A model generated the notes under the pieces. That model ran no database searches. It saw only the letters and a list, made by a program, of their open reading frames with translations, and was not told where the DNA came from. A program made the translations under genes and the position numbers. Shown in pieces: positions 10,586 through 57,462 of a DNA stretch of 64,000 bases. Position 1 is the stretch's first letter. Each line of letters begins with the position of its first letter. Source of the stretch: Phenylobacterium sp. Root1290 (GTDB lineage Bacteria; Pseudomonadota; Alphaproteobacteria; Caulobacterales; Caulobacteraceae); the NCBI RefSeq assembly GCF_001425305.1, contig NZ_LMEE01000003.1:525634-589633 (forward strand), given 5' to 3'.

Positions 10586-11320
10586 TCAGGAATTCCACAG
10601 ATCCGGCTCGGCGATCATGGCGTCGACCAGCTCCATGACCCGCTCGCGCGGGATGCAGCGGCCGAGGCGTTCGGCTTCGTAGGTGGCGACGTAGATGCCT
10701 ATCCACTGCATCATCGTGCGATCGCCGCGTTCGGCCCGCAGCGCCACCGGCCCGCCGGAGCAGCCGGCCCCGCCGATACCATCGATGTGGAAGGCGTAGG
10801 GATTGAGCCGGTAGTCTGAGGCCAGGGTGAAGCCGCGGGCGATCGGGGCGCTGCGCAGGATCGCCGCGCCTCCAGGGAAGCCGTAGATCATGCCCGCCGA
10901 GCCGGTGGTCAGCGGCAGGCCCTGGGGCAGCACCTCATAGTCGCCGAAACGGCCGGTCCAGTTGATCGCCTGGGGCTGGCCCCGCAGCCGGACGGGCACG
11001 CCGGCCACATCGAGCGAGGCGTTGTCCGGGTCCTGGTGCCATCGAAAGCGTGGCGCCTGGCCGTCATAGAGCGGCACGCTGATCCCCAGCGCCTCGCAAT
11101 CGAGGTCGTGGCCGTAGGTGTCGGCCCAGGTCGCCTCAGTCCCGCGGTTCTTGAAGTAGAATGTGTTCGGCCTCAGCAGGCAGTGCAGGGCGGTCAGCAC
11201 GATGTAGCGGTCGGCGTCGACGTGGAAGAGGAAGCCCGAGAACACCTGATGCGGCTCGCCATTCTTGAGGCGGGTGGCGAACCGCGGGCTGGCCTGGGCG
11301 AAGGGATCGATGAGGTCCAT
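10586..11320 (-). CDS. Trypsin-like serine protease without signal peptide
   Basis: 244 residues. A chymotrypsin-fold triad can be assigned: His46 in VLTALHCLL, Asp104 in NASLDVAGVPV and Ser188 in GAGCSGGPV. No signal peptide or membrane segment is seen, so it probably works in the cytosol, unlike HtrA proteases, and it has no PDZ domain. It is divergently transcribed from the radical SAM - UdgX operon, and the only intergenic space (11321-11404) holds a LexA-like box. That arrangement could make the protease damage-inducible. Homologues are normally annotated only as trypsin-like peptidases, so its target is unknown. Confidence 0.82.
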   Translation of the reverse strand: MDLIDPFAQASPRFATRLKNGEPHQVFSGFLFHVDADRYIVLTALHCLLRPNTFYFKNRGTEATWADTYGHDLDCEALGISVPLYDGQAPRFRWHQDPDNASLDVAGVPVRLRGQPQAINWTGRFGDYEVLPQGLPLTTGSAGMIYGFPGGAAILRSAPIARGFTLASDYRLNPYAFHIDGIGGAGCSGGPVALRAERGDRTMMQWIGIYVATYEAERLGRCIPRERVMELVDAMIAEPDLWNS

Positions 11321-11375
11321 GGCGAAAGGCTAGGCCGCATCGGGCGGCCGCGTCGAGACGTCGCCCCACTCGACA

Positions 11376-11390
11376 GAACAAAATGAGAAC
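11376..11390. promoter_or_regulatory. LexA-type SOS box (GAAC-N7-GAAC)
   Basis: GAAC at 11376-11379 and GAAC at 11387-11390 are separated by exactly seven bases. This is the reverse complement of GTTC-N7-GTTC, the LexA operator of alphaproteobacteria. It ends 14 bases before the ATG of the radical SAM gene and lies 55 bases before the divergent protease start, so LexA bound here could block one or both promoters. Confidence 0.75.
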
Positions 11391-11404
11391 ATTAGAGTGC
11401 GCGG

Positions 11405-12619
11405 ATGGCCGTCCTCAGCCTCAAGCGCAAGCTTTCGATCCTGTCCGACGCGGCGAAGTACGACGCGTCCTGCGCCTCGTCGGGATCGTCGCGGCGGGAC
11501 TCGGTGGGCGGATCGGGCGTCGGTTCGACCGAGGGCATGGGGATCTGCCACGCCTATGCGCCGGACGGGCGATGCATCAGTCTGCTGAAGATCCTGCTGA
11601 CCAACTTCTGCGTCTATGACTGCGCCTATTGCGTCAATAGGGTCAGCTCGAATACGCCGCGGGCGCGGTTCGCGGTCGAGGAGGTCGTCGATCTGACCCT
11701 CGGCTTCTACAAGCGCAACTACATCGAGGGCCTGTTCCTCTCGTCCGGGATCATCCGGAGCGCCGACTACACGATGGAAGAGATGGTCCGCGTGGCGCGC
11801 ACGTTGCGCGAGGTCCACGACTTTCGCGGCTACATCCACCTGAAGCTCATTCCCGAGGCGTCGGCGGGGCTGGTCAACGATGCGGCGCTGTATGCCGACC
11901 GGCTGTCGATCAACATCGAGCTGCCGCGCGACGAGAGCATCGCCTCGCTGGCGCCGGAAAAGGACGCGCGCCAGATCCGCAAGGCGATGGGCGCGGTGCG
12001 GCTGGGCATCGAGGAGGCGTCGGAGCCGGCGCGGGTCGCCGCGCCGCCGAAGTATGCGCCGGCAGGGCAATCCACGCAGATGATCGTCGGCGCGGACGGC
12101 GCCCTCGACGGCGAGATCCTGTCGCGCAGCGCCGCGCTCTACGGCGCCTATGGCCTGCGCCGGGTCTACTATTCCGCTTACAGCCCGATCCCCGACACCA
12201 CCTCGCGGTTGCCACCGGCGCGGCCGCCGCTGGCGCGCGAGCACCGGCTCTACCAGGCCGACTGGCTGATGCGGTTCTACGGCTTCGAGGCCGGGGAGAT
12301 CGCCGCCAGCGGCGAGAATCTCGACCTGGAAGTCGATCCCAAGCACGCCTGGGCGCTGCGCCATCGCGAGGCGTTCCCCGTGGACCTCAACCTGGCCGAT
12401 CGCGAGCAGATGCTGCGGGTCCCGGGACTGGGCGTCGCCGCCGTGGACCGTCTGATCGCCCTGCGCCGGCAAAAGCGCCTGCGGCTGGAGGACGTGCGGC
12501 GGCTGAGCCGGGGGCTGAAGACCTCAAAGGCCTATATCGTGGTCGACGACTGGCGACCGACCCGGCTGTCGGATCAGGCCGATCTGCGTCCGCCGCCGCA
12601 GCAGCTAAGCCTGTTCTGA
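11405..12619 (+). CDS. Putative DNA modification/repair radical SAM protein (UdgX-linked family)
   Basis: 404 residues. Cys69, Cys73 and Cys76 form the CxxxCxxC radical SAM motif in CVYDCAYC, which holds a 4Fe-4S cluster that cleaves S-adenosylmethionine. The C-terminal quarter contains a helix-hairpin-helix DNA-binding unit, LRVPGLGVAAVDRLIALRR, followed by a second such pattern. This matches the family called putative DNA modification/repair radical SAM protein, which is nearly always encoded next to a UdgX-like gene. Its chemistry has not been established as far as I know. Its TGA overlaps the ATG of udgX, and a LexA-like box lies 14 bases upstream of its start, implying SOS induction of the pair. 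Confidence 0.92.
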   Translation: MAVLSLKRKLSILSDAAKYDASCASSGSSRRDSVGGSGVGSTEGMGICHAYAPDGRCISLLKILLTNFCVYDCAYCVNRVSSNTPRARFAVEEVVDLTLGFYKRNYIEGLFLSSGIIRSADYTMEEMVRVARTLREVHDFRGYIHLKLIPEASAGLVNDAALYADRLSINIELPRDESIASLAPEKDARQIRKAMGAVRLGIEEASEPARVAAPPKYAPAGQSTQMIVGADGALDGEILSRSAALYGAYGLRRVYYSAYSPIPDTTSRLPPARPPLAREHRLYQADWLMRFYGFEAGEIAASGENLDLEVDPKHAWALRHREAFPVDLNLADREQMLRVPGLGVAAVDRLIALRRQKRLRLEDVRRLSRGLKTSKAYIVVDDWRPTRLSDQADLRPPPQQLSLF

Positions 12620-14049
12620 TGCGGGTGGTGCGGCTCGCCTCCGAGATCGACTTTGCCGGGTGGCGGCTCGCCGCGCGGGCCTTGCGCTCGCTTCAGGCGG
12701 CGCCGGACGACGTCATCTGGACCGTGGACGGCGAGGGCGACCTGTTCGGAGACGAGGCGACGCCGCCTCAGGCCGGTCCGCCGGCGTTCACGGTGCCCAA
12801 GGGGTTCCTCGATCTTGCCCAGGAGGTGGCGCTGCATCGCTCGGGCGAGCGGTTCACTTTGCTTTACCGGCTGCTCTGGCGGCTTGGGCGGCAGCCCGAA
12901 CTGCTGGGCCTGGCCTCAGATCCCGACGTCGCCCGCGCTCGCGATATGGCCAAGGCGGTGTCGCGCGCATCGCACAAGATGAAGGCCTTCGTCCGCTTCC
13001 GGCTGGTCGAGGATGCGGCCGAGGAGACCTATGTCGCCTGGTTCGAGCCCGCGCACCGGGTGACCGAGGCGACGGCGCCGTTCTTCCAGCGGCGTTTCAC
13101 CAACATGTGCTGGTCGATCCTGACGCCGGACGTCTGCGCCCACTGGGACCGGGAGAAGCTCACCTTCTCGTCCGGCGCCGATCCGGCCGACGCGCCGGGC
13201 GAGGATGCGCTGGAGGAGTATTGGCGCACCTATTACGCCTCGATCTTCAATCCGGCGCGGCTGAAGACGGCGGCGATGCAGCGCGAGATGCCCAAGCGCT
13301 ACTGGCGGAACCTGCCGGAGGCGCGGCTCATTCCCGAACTGGTCGCCACAGCGGAGGCGCGCGCCGAGGAGATGGTCCGCCAGCAACCTTCCGAACCCAC
13401 GCGGCGCGTCGTGCGCCAGGCCCAGCGGCTGTCGCGGGACGGCTCGTTCGAGGAGGGCGCGCCGGCGACCTTGGAAGAGGTGACCGCCGGCGCCGACTTT
13501 TGCCGCCGCTGCGAGCTCTGGCGCGATGCGACCCAGGCTGTCGCGGGCGACGGGCCGGGCAGGGCGAGGCTCATGCTGGTGGGCGAACAACCGGGCGATC
13601 AGGAGGATTTGGCCGGCAAGCCGTTCGTGGGGCCGGCGGGGCGGGTGCTGGACGAGGCGCTTGAGGCCGCCGGGGCGCCGCGCGCCCAGATCTACGTCAC
13701 CAACGCCGTGAAGCACTTCCGGCACGAGTTGCACGGCAAGCGCCGGATTCACAAGACCCCGACGGCAGGGCATGTGTCGGCCTGTCGCTGGTGGCTGGAC
13801 GCTGAGCGGCGGATCGTCCAGCCGCGGGTGATCGTGGCGCTGGGTGCGACCGCCGCGCTGGGCGTGTTCGGCAAGGCGATGGCGGTCGGCCAGTCGCGCG
13901 GCCAGGCGCTGCAGTTGCCGGACCAGGCGCAGGGCGTGGTGACCTATCACCCGTCGTTTCTGCTGCGCATGCCGGACGCCCAGGCCAAGTCCGAGGTGTA
14001 CGCGGCCTTCGTCGAGGATCTGAAGTTCGCCTGGAAGCTGGCGAGCTAG
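12619..14049 (+). CDS. udgX: UdgX-family uracil-DNA glycosylase/binding protein fused to a DUF4130-like N-terminal domain
   Basis: 476 residues in two parts. Residues 1 to about 240 match the DUF4130-like domain found with the radical SAM partner. Residues about 280-476 are a family-4-like uracil-DNA glycosylase with two 4Fe-4S cysteine ligands in CRRCELW, the motif GEQPGDQED (322-330), and a late HPSF. The insert KRRIH (374-378) is the UdgX signature: the histidine, His378 here and His109 in Mycobacterium smegmatis UdgX, forms a covalent bond with the abasic sugar after uracil removal. The protein thus probably tags uracil sites permanently. It is translationally coupled to the radical SAM gene (TGATG). 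Confidence 0.93.
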   Translation: MRVVRLASEIDFAGWRLAARALRSLQAAPDDVIWTVDGEGDLFGDEATPPQAGPPAFTVPKGFLDLAQEVALHRSGERFTLLYRLLWRLGRQPELLGLASDPDVARARDMAKAVSRASHKMKAFVRFRLVEDAAEETYVAWFEPAHRVTEATAPFFQRRFTNMCWSILTPDVCAHWDREKLTFSSGADPADAPGEDALEEYWRTYYASIFNPARLKTAAMQREMPKRYWRNLPEARLIPELVATAEARAEEMVRQQPSEPTRRVVRQAQRLSRDGSFEEGAPATLEEVTAGADFCRRCELWRDATQAVAGDGPGRARLMLVGEQPGDQEDLAGKPFVGPAGRVLDEALEAAGAPRAQIYVTNAVKHFRHELHGKRRIHKTPTAGHVSACRWWLDAERRIVQPRVIVALGATAALGVFGKAMAVGQSRGQALQLPDQAQGVVTYHPSFLLRMPDAQAKSEVYAAFVEDLKFAWKLAS

Positions 14050-56376: not shown

Positions 56377-57462
56377 ATGCTGATCACCATTCTCGCCGCG
56401 GCCGCGGCCATCTCCGCAAGCTGCGATCTAGAGACGCCCAACGGCGAGCCCGGATGCACCCGCGCGGCGGTCGATGCGCTCAAGGTCAACGATCTGCAGG
56501 CGATCGGCACCCACAACTCATACAAGCAGGCGATCGCGCCCAGGCAGATGGCGTTGCTGCGGGTTGTTGATCCCAAGCAGGCTGACGGCCTGGACTACGC
56601 CCATCCGCCGCTGGCCGCCCAGCTGGGCGCCGGTGCGCGCCAGCTCGAGCTCGATCTGTTGAATGACCCGGGCGGCGGTCGCTATGCTTCGCCCCTGGCG
56701 ATGAAGATGGCGCCCGACATCCCGTACGACCTCGCGCCGCTGCAGGGGCCGGGGATGAAGGTCATGCACGTCCAGGACATCGACTACCGCTCCAGCTGCG
56801 CGCGCTTCACCGATTGCCTGAAGGAGGTGGCGGCCTGGTCGAAGGCGCACCCCGATCACCTGCCGATCCTCATCCTCCTGAACCTCAAGGAGGGCGGGCT
56901 GAACGTCCCCGGAACGGTCGAGGCCCTCGCCTTCGACGCCGCCGCCATGGACGCGGTGGACGCCGAGATCCTGTCAGTCTTCCAGCCCGGCGAACTGATC
57001 ACGCCAGGCAGCGTCCAGGGCCGCCGCGCCAGCCTGCGCGAGGCGGTGCTGGCAGGCGACTGGCCGACCCTGAAGGCCGCCCGCGGCAAGGTGATGTTCG
57101 CGCTCGACGCGCCGCCCGAGCAGGTCACCCTCTACCGCGGCCAGCGGCGCTCGCTGGAGGGACGGGCGATGTTCGTGAACATCGATGAGACGTCGCCGGC
57201 CGCCGGCTACATCACCCTCAACGAGCCCAAGGAGCAGGCCGCCCGCATCGCCGCGGCGGTGAAGGCCGGTTTCATCGTCCGCACCCGCGCCGACGCCGAC
57301 ACGCTCGAGGCGCGCAATGGCGATCTCAGCCGCCAGCAGGCTGCGTTCAGCTCCGGCGCGCAGTACGTCTCGACCGACTACATGGCGCCTGACCCGCGCC
57401 TGGGCGCCTACAGCGTCCAACTGCCCGGCGGGGGAACCGCGCGGCGCAGCCCGGCGCGCTAG
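56377..57462 (+). CDS. Secreted calcium-dependent phosphoinositide-type phospholipase C
   Basis: 361 residues with a signal peptide (MLITILAAAAAISA, cleavage near residues 14-16). The TIM-barrel PI-PLC core has catalytic His46 (AIGTHNSYKQ), the acidic ligands in ELDLLND (91-97) and His131 in VMHVQDIDYR. It matches the Ca-dependent PI-PLC family found in some bacteria and secreted. It cleaves phosphatidylinositol or a related inositol phospholipid, giving diacylglycerol and inositol phosphate. The stop overlaps that of the convergent GFA gene by four bases. Confidence 0.86.
   Translation: MLITILAAAAAISASCDLETPNGEPGCTRAAVDALKVNDLQAIGTHNSYKQAIAPRQMALLRVVDPKQADGLDYAHPPLAAQLGAGARQLELDLLNDPGGGRYASPLAMKMAPDIPYDLAPLQGPGMKVMHVQDIDYRSSCARFTDCLKEVAAWSKAHPDHLPILILLNLKEGGLNVPGTVEALAFDAAAMDAVDAEILSVFQPGELITPGSVQGRRASLREAVLAGDWPTLKAARGKVMFALDAPPEQVTLYRGQRRSLEGRAMFVNIDETSPAAGYITLNEPKEQAARIAAAVKAGFIVRTRADADTLEARNGDLSRQQAAFSSGAQYVSTDYMAPDPRLGAYSVQLPGGGTARRSPAR

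Follow-up and report, generated by a model that had tools for sequence, protein, structure and literature searches.

The 64,000-nt stretch of Phenylobacterium sp. Root1290 DNA analyzed here (contig NZ_LMEE01000003.1, positions 525,634 to 589,633; hereafter the window) contains a two-gene operon of the SOS type, encoding a radical SAM (S-adenosylmethionine) protein and a DUF4130 protein fused to UdgX of the uracil-DNA glycosylase (UDG) family, beside an independent gene for a trypsin-like serine protease. As an SOS unit, the operon is of a kind already in print; the feature that seems new is a conserved peptide, QLSLF, at the C-terminus of the radical SAM protein, of the type that binds the beta sliding clamp DnaN. 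The locus as a whole is probably best explained as an SOS-induced, clamp-docked radical SAM-DUF4130 unit, to which UdgX has been fused in many lineages.

The radical SAM gene (11405..12619, plus strand, 404 aa) is followed by the DUF4130/TIGR03915-UdgX fusion gene (12619..14049, plus strand, 476 aa), and the stop codon of the first shares one base with the start codon of the second (TGATG). The protease gene is divergent; its start and the radical SAM start are 84 bp apart, and a LexA-type box lies in this interval. A preliminary description of this DNA had claimed a GAAC-N7-GAAC box, a protease with a catalytic triad and an overlapping radical SAM-UdgX pair, and all three are present in the sequence.

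A clamp-binding-type peptide in the radical SAM protein

The QLSLF tail (12602..12616, plus strand) is a putative beta sliding clamp-binding motif. The canonical motif is given as QL[S/D]LF, and its revised forms as Q-phi-x-[L/M]-[F/L] and Q-phi-x-[L/M]-x-[F/L] (PMC13254535, in part). Of 101 distinct complete radical SAM orthologues, 69 have the published revised consensus within their 15 C-terminal residues, versus 1.84 expected from shuffled tails, a figure which, like the Fisher tests given below, treats related genomes as independent, although counts of orthologues are not. Tails that fit the consensus come from Phenylobacterium (24/31), other Alphaproteobacteria (33/44), the same phylum outside the class (9/21), other phyla (2/4, one from Bacteroides and one from Clostridia) and a viral contig (1/1), and the strict form QL[SD]LF is present in 33 of the 101. 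Identical proteins were counted once, and two cut sequences (L128, L145) and a partial one (L147) were dropped. The comparison covers 20 of the 29 genomes outside the class that carry the radical SAM gene, as well as 6 of 158 plasmid records; 27 further Alphaproteobacteria are the best-scoring loci of the phylum sample rather than a random draw.

Gln at position -5, Pro at -7, Leu at -2 and Phe at -1 are invariant in the 31 Phenylobacterium proteins, while the rest of the tail varies. Within the window, a single one of 50 open reading frames (ORFs), chosen greedily so as not to overlap, ends in the consensus, and it is the radical SAM gene. Residues 398-404 of the predicted model have pLDDT values below 50; a clamp-binding-type peptide is thus found in a region predicted to be flexible, as expected of a clamp client. 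In this five-residue peptide at a flexible C-terminus the protein is like the clamp clients whose peptide is of the QL[S/D]LF type (PMC13254535, in part), clamp binding being putative here and judged from the sequence. We consider it quite likely that the radical SAM protein docks on DnaN through QLSLF. No radical SAM client of the sliding clamp came up among the papers that our literature searches listed, an absence that is no proof of its being unpublished.

Several observations, besides the non-independence of the counts, weaken the case for a clamp-docked enzyme. The published consensus is not matched by 32 of the 101 tails. A looser form, which admits Met at position 2, Phe at position 4 and Trp or Ile at the end, takes in 24 of these and raises the total to 93 of 101, at the price of a set widened after the tails had been seen. 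The remaining eight fit neither form: six have QPSLF, QQSLF or QGSLF, and two distant plasmid matches (L198, L199) possess no such tail. The last Phe codon is TTC in 30/30 Phenylobacterium genes, i.e. it shows no synonymous change. The helix-hairpin-helix-like stretch of the radical SAM protein (residues 325-357; 12377..12475, plus strand) is only a weak match to Pfam HHH_3: with 16.9 bits (E 0.0069) it stays below the cut-off of 27.

The invariant TTC also bears on whether the tail is conserved for another reason, namely through start signals of the next gene in the DNA, or as a C-terminal degradation signal. The TGATG overlap recurs in 30/30 Phenylobacterium loci, in agreement with the former; however, synonymous codons do vary at positions -7, -5, -4 and -2 of the Phenylobacterium tails, and in one orthologue (L135) the peptide is retained although the second gene starts 558 bp downstream. 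A degradation signal fits poorly with a motif that is not always terminal, being kept where further residues come after it (QLSLFDGHAAH, QLELFAA). We therefore regard this explanation as highly improbable. The tail could instead dock the enzyme onto its DUF4130 partner rather than onto the clamp. DUF4130 is indeed a constant companion (see below), but the published clamp consensus fits 69 of the tails, in five- and six-residue forms as in clamp clients, and we find docking onto DUF4130 unlikely. Six genomes (L166-L169, L172 and L173; family f162) have the tail QLGFGF in place of QLSLF, a six-residue form outside the published consensus.

The radical SAM protein scores 544 bits against TIGR03916 (NCBIfam cut-off 343.5), a family of putative DNA modification/repair radical SAM proteins, which we take to be the same as COG4277; the control genomes with a match to the family include that of Caulobacter vibrioides. 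Its cluster-binding motif CxxxCxxC (CVYDCAYC, residues 69-76; 11609..11632, plus strand) has cysteines that are invariant in 26 sequences. Searches by sequence at E-values up to 0.01 found no solved relative, and the best 50 rows of a fold search with the predicted model comprise general radical SAM folds (HydE, LIAS, PFL-activase and viperin; best TM-score by query 0.41), with no hint of a substrate among them. None of the protease, radical SAM and DUF4130-UdgX proteins has a PHROG match. Radical SAM matches at E-values up to 1e-20 are present in 158 plasmid records (e.g. L196, L197), and in the Bacteroides and Pusillibacter records the gene after the radical SAM gene is annotated as TIGR03915. 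A contig filed as viral (L146, 4001-5239) encodes an orthologue that has QLELFG at its end, and a GAAC-N7-GAAC box precedes its gene. In one genome (G011:C1:2323527-2324749) the radical SAM gene is split into three slightly overlapping matches, and is perhaps broken or misassembled.

LexA-type box and SOS control

The LexA-type box GAACAAAATGAGAAC (11376..11390, plus strand) lies at -29 of the radical SAM start. Taken alone, the window does not distinguish it from chance, as GAAC-N7-GAAC matches twice versus 1.10 expected, and at least two matches occur in 30 of 100 shuffles. The box is secure because of its conservation among Phenylobacterium radical SAM loci: 29 of 30 have the exact box at -28 to -32 relative to the start of the radical SAM gene, and the remaining locus has it with one mismatch. 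These loci represent 30 of the 51 Phenylobacterium genomes with the radical SAM gene, to which G028 (L073) was added. When distinct orthologues are counted, an alpha-type box is upstream of 30/31 in Phenylobacterium, and a box of the same type, in either orientation between -150 and +45, accompanies 43/44 from other Alphaproteobacteria; a conserved GAAC-N7-GAAC or GTTC-N7-GTTC near the start, as in the alphaproteobacterial LexA regulon, is thus found. In the same phylum but outside the class, 17 of 21 orthologues have CTG[TG]-N8-[AC]CAG instead, presumably the gammaproteobacterial LexA type, and the operator type appears to shift with the lineage while SOS control persists.

The position of the box is fixed to the radical SAM start whether the protease gene is near, far or absent. 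A single LexA match is present in the genome of the window (domain at C1:343150-343338, minus strand), and its gene is closely preceded by a box of this type (343380-343394). The whole genome contains 113 boxes versus 64 for the reversed pattern. There are gaps that argue the other way: the exact recognized box is missing in 1/31 Phenylobacterium, 1/44 other alphaproteobacterial and 4/21 same-phylum orthologues, and neither an alpha- nor a gamma-type box was found in any of the four orthologues from other phyla. Nevertheless, the idea of an SOS-boxed radical SAM-UdgX pair, put forward in the preliminary description, is strongly supported by the conservation of this predicted operator. The second GAAC-N7-GAAC of the window, at 56901-56915 inside an ORF (56377-57462), is likely due to chance.

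DUF4130 as the constant and UdgX as the optional partner

The second gene of the operon encodes a fusion with DUF4130/TIGR03915 in front (DUF4130: residues 77-234; 12847..13320, plus strand; Pfam PF13566, 1.6e-40; TIGR03915: 210 bits, NCBIfam cut-off 112) and UdgX behind (residues 237-470; 13327..14028, plus strand; TIGR03914, 319 bits, cut-off 190). The assignment of the rear domain to UdgX agrees with the TIGR03914 score and with the presence of both GEQPG (motif A, residues 322-326) and the R-loop KRRIH (13738..13752, plus strand), in which the alignment places His378 at the position of His109 of Mycobacterium smegmatis UdgX, the cross-linking histidine (PMC10359453, in part). Motif B, given in the same source as HPS(S/A)(L/V)(L/V)R with its His and Arg named as functional, reads HPSFLLR here (residues 444-450), i.e. 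it is one place off, with Phe for Ser/Ala, and has the functional His and Arg. In the UdgX domain, the predicted model matches structures of M. smegmatis UdgX (50-54% identity). GEQPG, KRRIH and the motif B His and Arg are thus common to both proteins, whereas the domain studied here, unlike its M. smegmatis counterpart as described in the available part of PMC10359453, is fused behind DUF4130, is encoded with a radical SAM enzyme and has the motif B Phe. In a fold search with the fusion protein, no relative of DUF4130 was recognized in the best 50 of 63 rows (E-values up to 0.001), which were filled with UDG structures. Residues 42-43 of the fusion protein form a near-invariant LF pair (L in 77/80, F in 71/80 sequences) that adjoins a loop modelled with low confidence (39-42, pLDDT below 50) and may be a second short docking motif.

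The comparison of loci makes DUF4130 the constant partner of the radical SAM gene, and UdgX an optional one. With both domains scored anywhere in the stretch fetched around the radical SAM gene, and not in the next gene only, DUF4130 is present in 31/31 Phenylobacterium, 43/44 other alphaproteobacterial, 21/21 same-phylum and 2/4 other-phylum stretches. The corresponding numbers for UdgX are 31/31, 34/44, 10/21 and 0/4, of which the second becomes 35 after correction, as L116 is a short stretch of a gene also covered, with UdgX, by L135. Of the earlier pairing of radical SAM with UdgX, then, the pair itself is real in the window, whereas the role of fixed partner passes from UdgX to DUF4130. 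UdgX is also found without the radical SAM gene within Phenylobacterium.

From the optional character of UdgX it follows that the core reaction seemingly does not depend on it, and that the radical SAM enzyme is unlikely to serve in undoing UdgX adducts. That the enzyme might undo the bond between UdgX and DNA is suggested by adjacency and by the fact that the second of the two genes has UdgX fused to it. However, UdgX is missing from the stretch in 10 of 44 other alphaproteobacterial orthologues (8 when L116 and L201, a record that ends just after the radical SAM gene, are set aside) and in 11 of 21 further ones. Among 19 genomes with a UdgX-less operon, two have TIGR03914 over the cut-off elsewhere and 17 do not; seven of these 17 show a weaker match, probably to an ordinary family-4 UDG. 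Together with the Phenylobacterium genomes that have UdgX but no radical SAM gene, this makes such a role very unlikely.

The adjacent protease

The divergent gene (10586..11320, minus strand, 244 aa) encodes a trypsin-like serine protease, which does not reach the gathering score of Pfam Trypsin_2 (21.2 vs 27.6 bits); 11 of the 12 protease orthologues match this family at E-values up to 0.1, the best being 0.00045. The triad His46/Asp104/Ser188 is in place and is invariant in the 12 aligned orthologues, and its residues stand in TAxHC, DxA and GxSGGP, which we take to be the contexts of the trypsin-like His/Asp/Ser triad. No signal peptide is visible by eye, and the earlier reading of a signal-less protease with a full triad holds. 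From loci with or without the operon, 13 copies were translated; the triad is intact in 12, and the 13th has an in-frame stop before the Ser. The protease has no credible solved relative (single match, E 0.052). Among 200 genomes (41 genera) of the order it occurs only in the window's own, as it does in the phylum sample (1/396 genomes), and no copy was found in plasmids or phages; a contig scan for relatives gave seven loci, six of them from Phenylobacterium. The protease searches also gave a padloc match to LmuA (E 0.0097) and, within the genome of the window, a second match that is weak (E 0.0139).

According to the preliminary description, the protease, the radical SAM enzyme and UdgX could form one damage-response module, in which the protease trims UdgX-DNA cross-links, and the gene pair with the divergent protease was to be looked for in other genomes. 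Among 100 Phenylobacterium genomes, 14 have the protease (including one incomplete copy at a contig end and the one with the in-frame stop), 51 have the radical SAM gene (in four of them partial or in pieces) and 58 have UdgX. The protease occurs together with the radical SAM gene in six genomes (Fisher p = 0.57) and together with UdgX in eight (p = 1.0); hence 8 of the 14 protease genomes have no radical SAM gene, 6 of the 14 have no UdgX at the cut-offs used, and 45 of the 51 radical SAM genomes have no protease. The preliminary description had itself named a lack of co-occurrence as refuting the module, and on this test the result goes against it. Two of the 14 (G054, G021) are 70-77% complete, and the G054 locus itself is seen without the operon.

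Gene order points in the same direction. In the three genomes whose proteases are nearest to the window's among those without the radical SAM gene (G078, G054 and G022; 88-92% identity), the protease directly adjoins a TetR gene and the operon is gone, while the operon lies at most 3 kb from this TetR gene, with CoxE following, in all eight protease-less genomes fetched (L066-L073). Where the protease is separated from the radical SAM gene by about 720 bp (G085, G095, G004) or 3.3 kb (G024), the box remains with the radical SAM gene, and in the eight protease-only loci (of which L022 is truncated) an exact box is lacking up to 1.5 kb from the protease. The box thus goes with the start of the radical SAM gene and is not tied to the protease. 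The complete copies of the protease retain the triad without the operon, and in the 395 other genomes of the phylum sample the gene was not found.

Some observations do speak for a link with the protease. Apart from the divergent arrangement around the box, all six genomes with both have the protease and the operon at one locus, so a weak functional link is possible, and the box lies about 56-70 bp from the start of the window's protease, where LexA could touch the protease promoter. Two genomes (G029, G057) carry a UdgX domain near the protease without the radical SAM gene. Boxes with one mismatch precede the protease start by 203 bp (G029) and 341 bp (G054, G022) in a scan that took the left side of each locus and missed the upstream side of minus-strand loci; chance can give such boxes. 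Finally, proteases have been named as a possible route of resolving UdgX-DNA complexes (PMC10359453, in part). Against the distribution these points carry little weight: the three-gene module is largely refuted by it, and that the three genes form one unit with a trimming protease is, in our judgement, barely credible. Inclusion of the protease in the operon's module was rejected on co-occurrence, synteny and box position, and the protease looks like a lineage-specific neighbour whose place beside the operon was apparently inherited and not kept by selection.

The UdgX domains near the protease are encoded at L062 7064-7744 (G029) and L064 12042-12737 (G057), without DUF4130, and no exact LexA-type box is found near either. 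A small ORF (MTLSMY...) beside the protease lies between it and the radical SAM gene in L058, and between TetR and the protease in L061; its product seems to us to resemble DUF1993.

Predicted mode of action and relation to known systems

We propose that LexA, predicted to bind at 11376-11390, represses the radical SAM gene together with the overlapping DUF4130-UdgX gene, and that DNA damage would release both; we propose this because the box is conserved and because SOS control of such operons has been published for other bacteria. Through its C-terminal QLSLF, the radical SAM protein would then sit in the DnaN pocket, in the manner of translesion polymerases, as judged from the peptide and its conservation. 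Docked on the clamp, the enzyme would act at stalled forks or gaps, where the radical SAM protein and DUF4130 would together use radical chemistry on a base that is damaged or deaminated; we infer this site of action and substrate from the docking, the SOS control and the family names. Where present, the fused UdgX would remove uracil and cap the remaining abasic sugar through a histidine bond, by analogy with M. smegmatis UdgX, whose chemistry is known and whose key residues are present here. With somewhat less confidence than in the individual docking step, we favour the picture of a radical SAM enzyme riding the sliding clamp, i.e. an SOS-induced radical SAM-DUF4130 unit with an optional self-crosslinking UdgX, brought to forks by QLSLF.

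An SOS-regulated UDG-radical SAM operon (COG1573-COG4277) has been predicted in Bacteroidetes by authors who cite such reports for Verrucomicrobia and Alphaproteobacteria (PMC8565304, in part), and the operon as an SOS unit is therefore already known. The window's operon is like it in combining radical SAM and UDG under apparent SOS control, and unlike it, as far as the available part of that paper goes, in that DUF4130 is constant and UdgX optional; the words 'clamp' and 'DnaN' are absent from its text. In one Bacteroides record the gene after the radical SAM gene is annotated as TIGR03915, and there is no UDG beside it. A second published system, known to us from part of its text, has the same kinds of domains linked to SOS and mutagenesis, without the words 'clamp' or 'sliding' in its text, whereas the enzyme studied here belongs to TIGR03916. 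Four UDG-family genes are described in Caulobacter crescentus (PMC1839093, in part). Our searches found no literature that joins UdgX with a radical SAM enzyme, and none of the papers matched by family or locus names mentions TIGR03916.

The case of the protease warns against inferring function from an adjacent gene. The radical SAM gene, on the other hand, is widespread, being present in 84 of the 398 genomes sampled from the phylum, and looks SOS-controlled. Its clamp tail, if real, would place the enzyme at replication forks and at the gaps behind them, beside the translesion polymerases, and with this tail the site at which the operon acts becomes open to direct testing. If this is true, the protein would be, as far as our literature searches show, the first of the radical SAM enzymes to be linked with the replication clamp.

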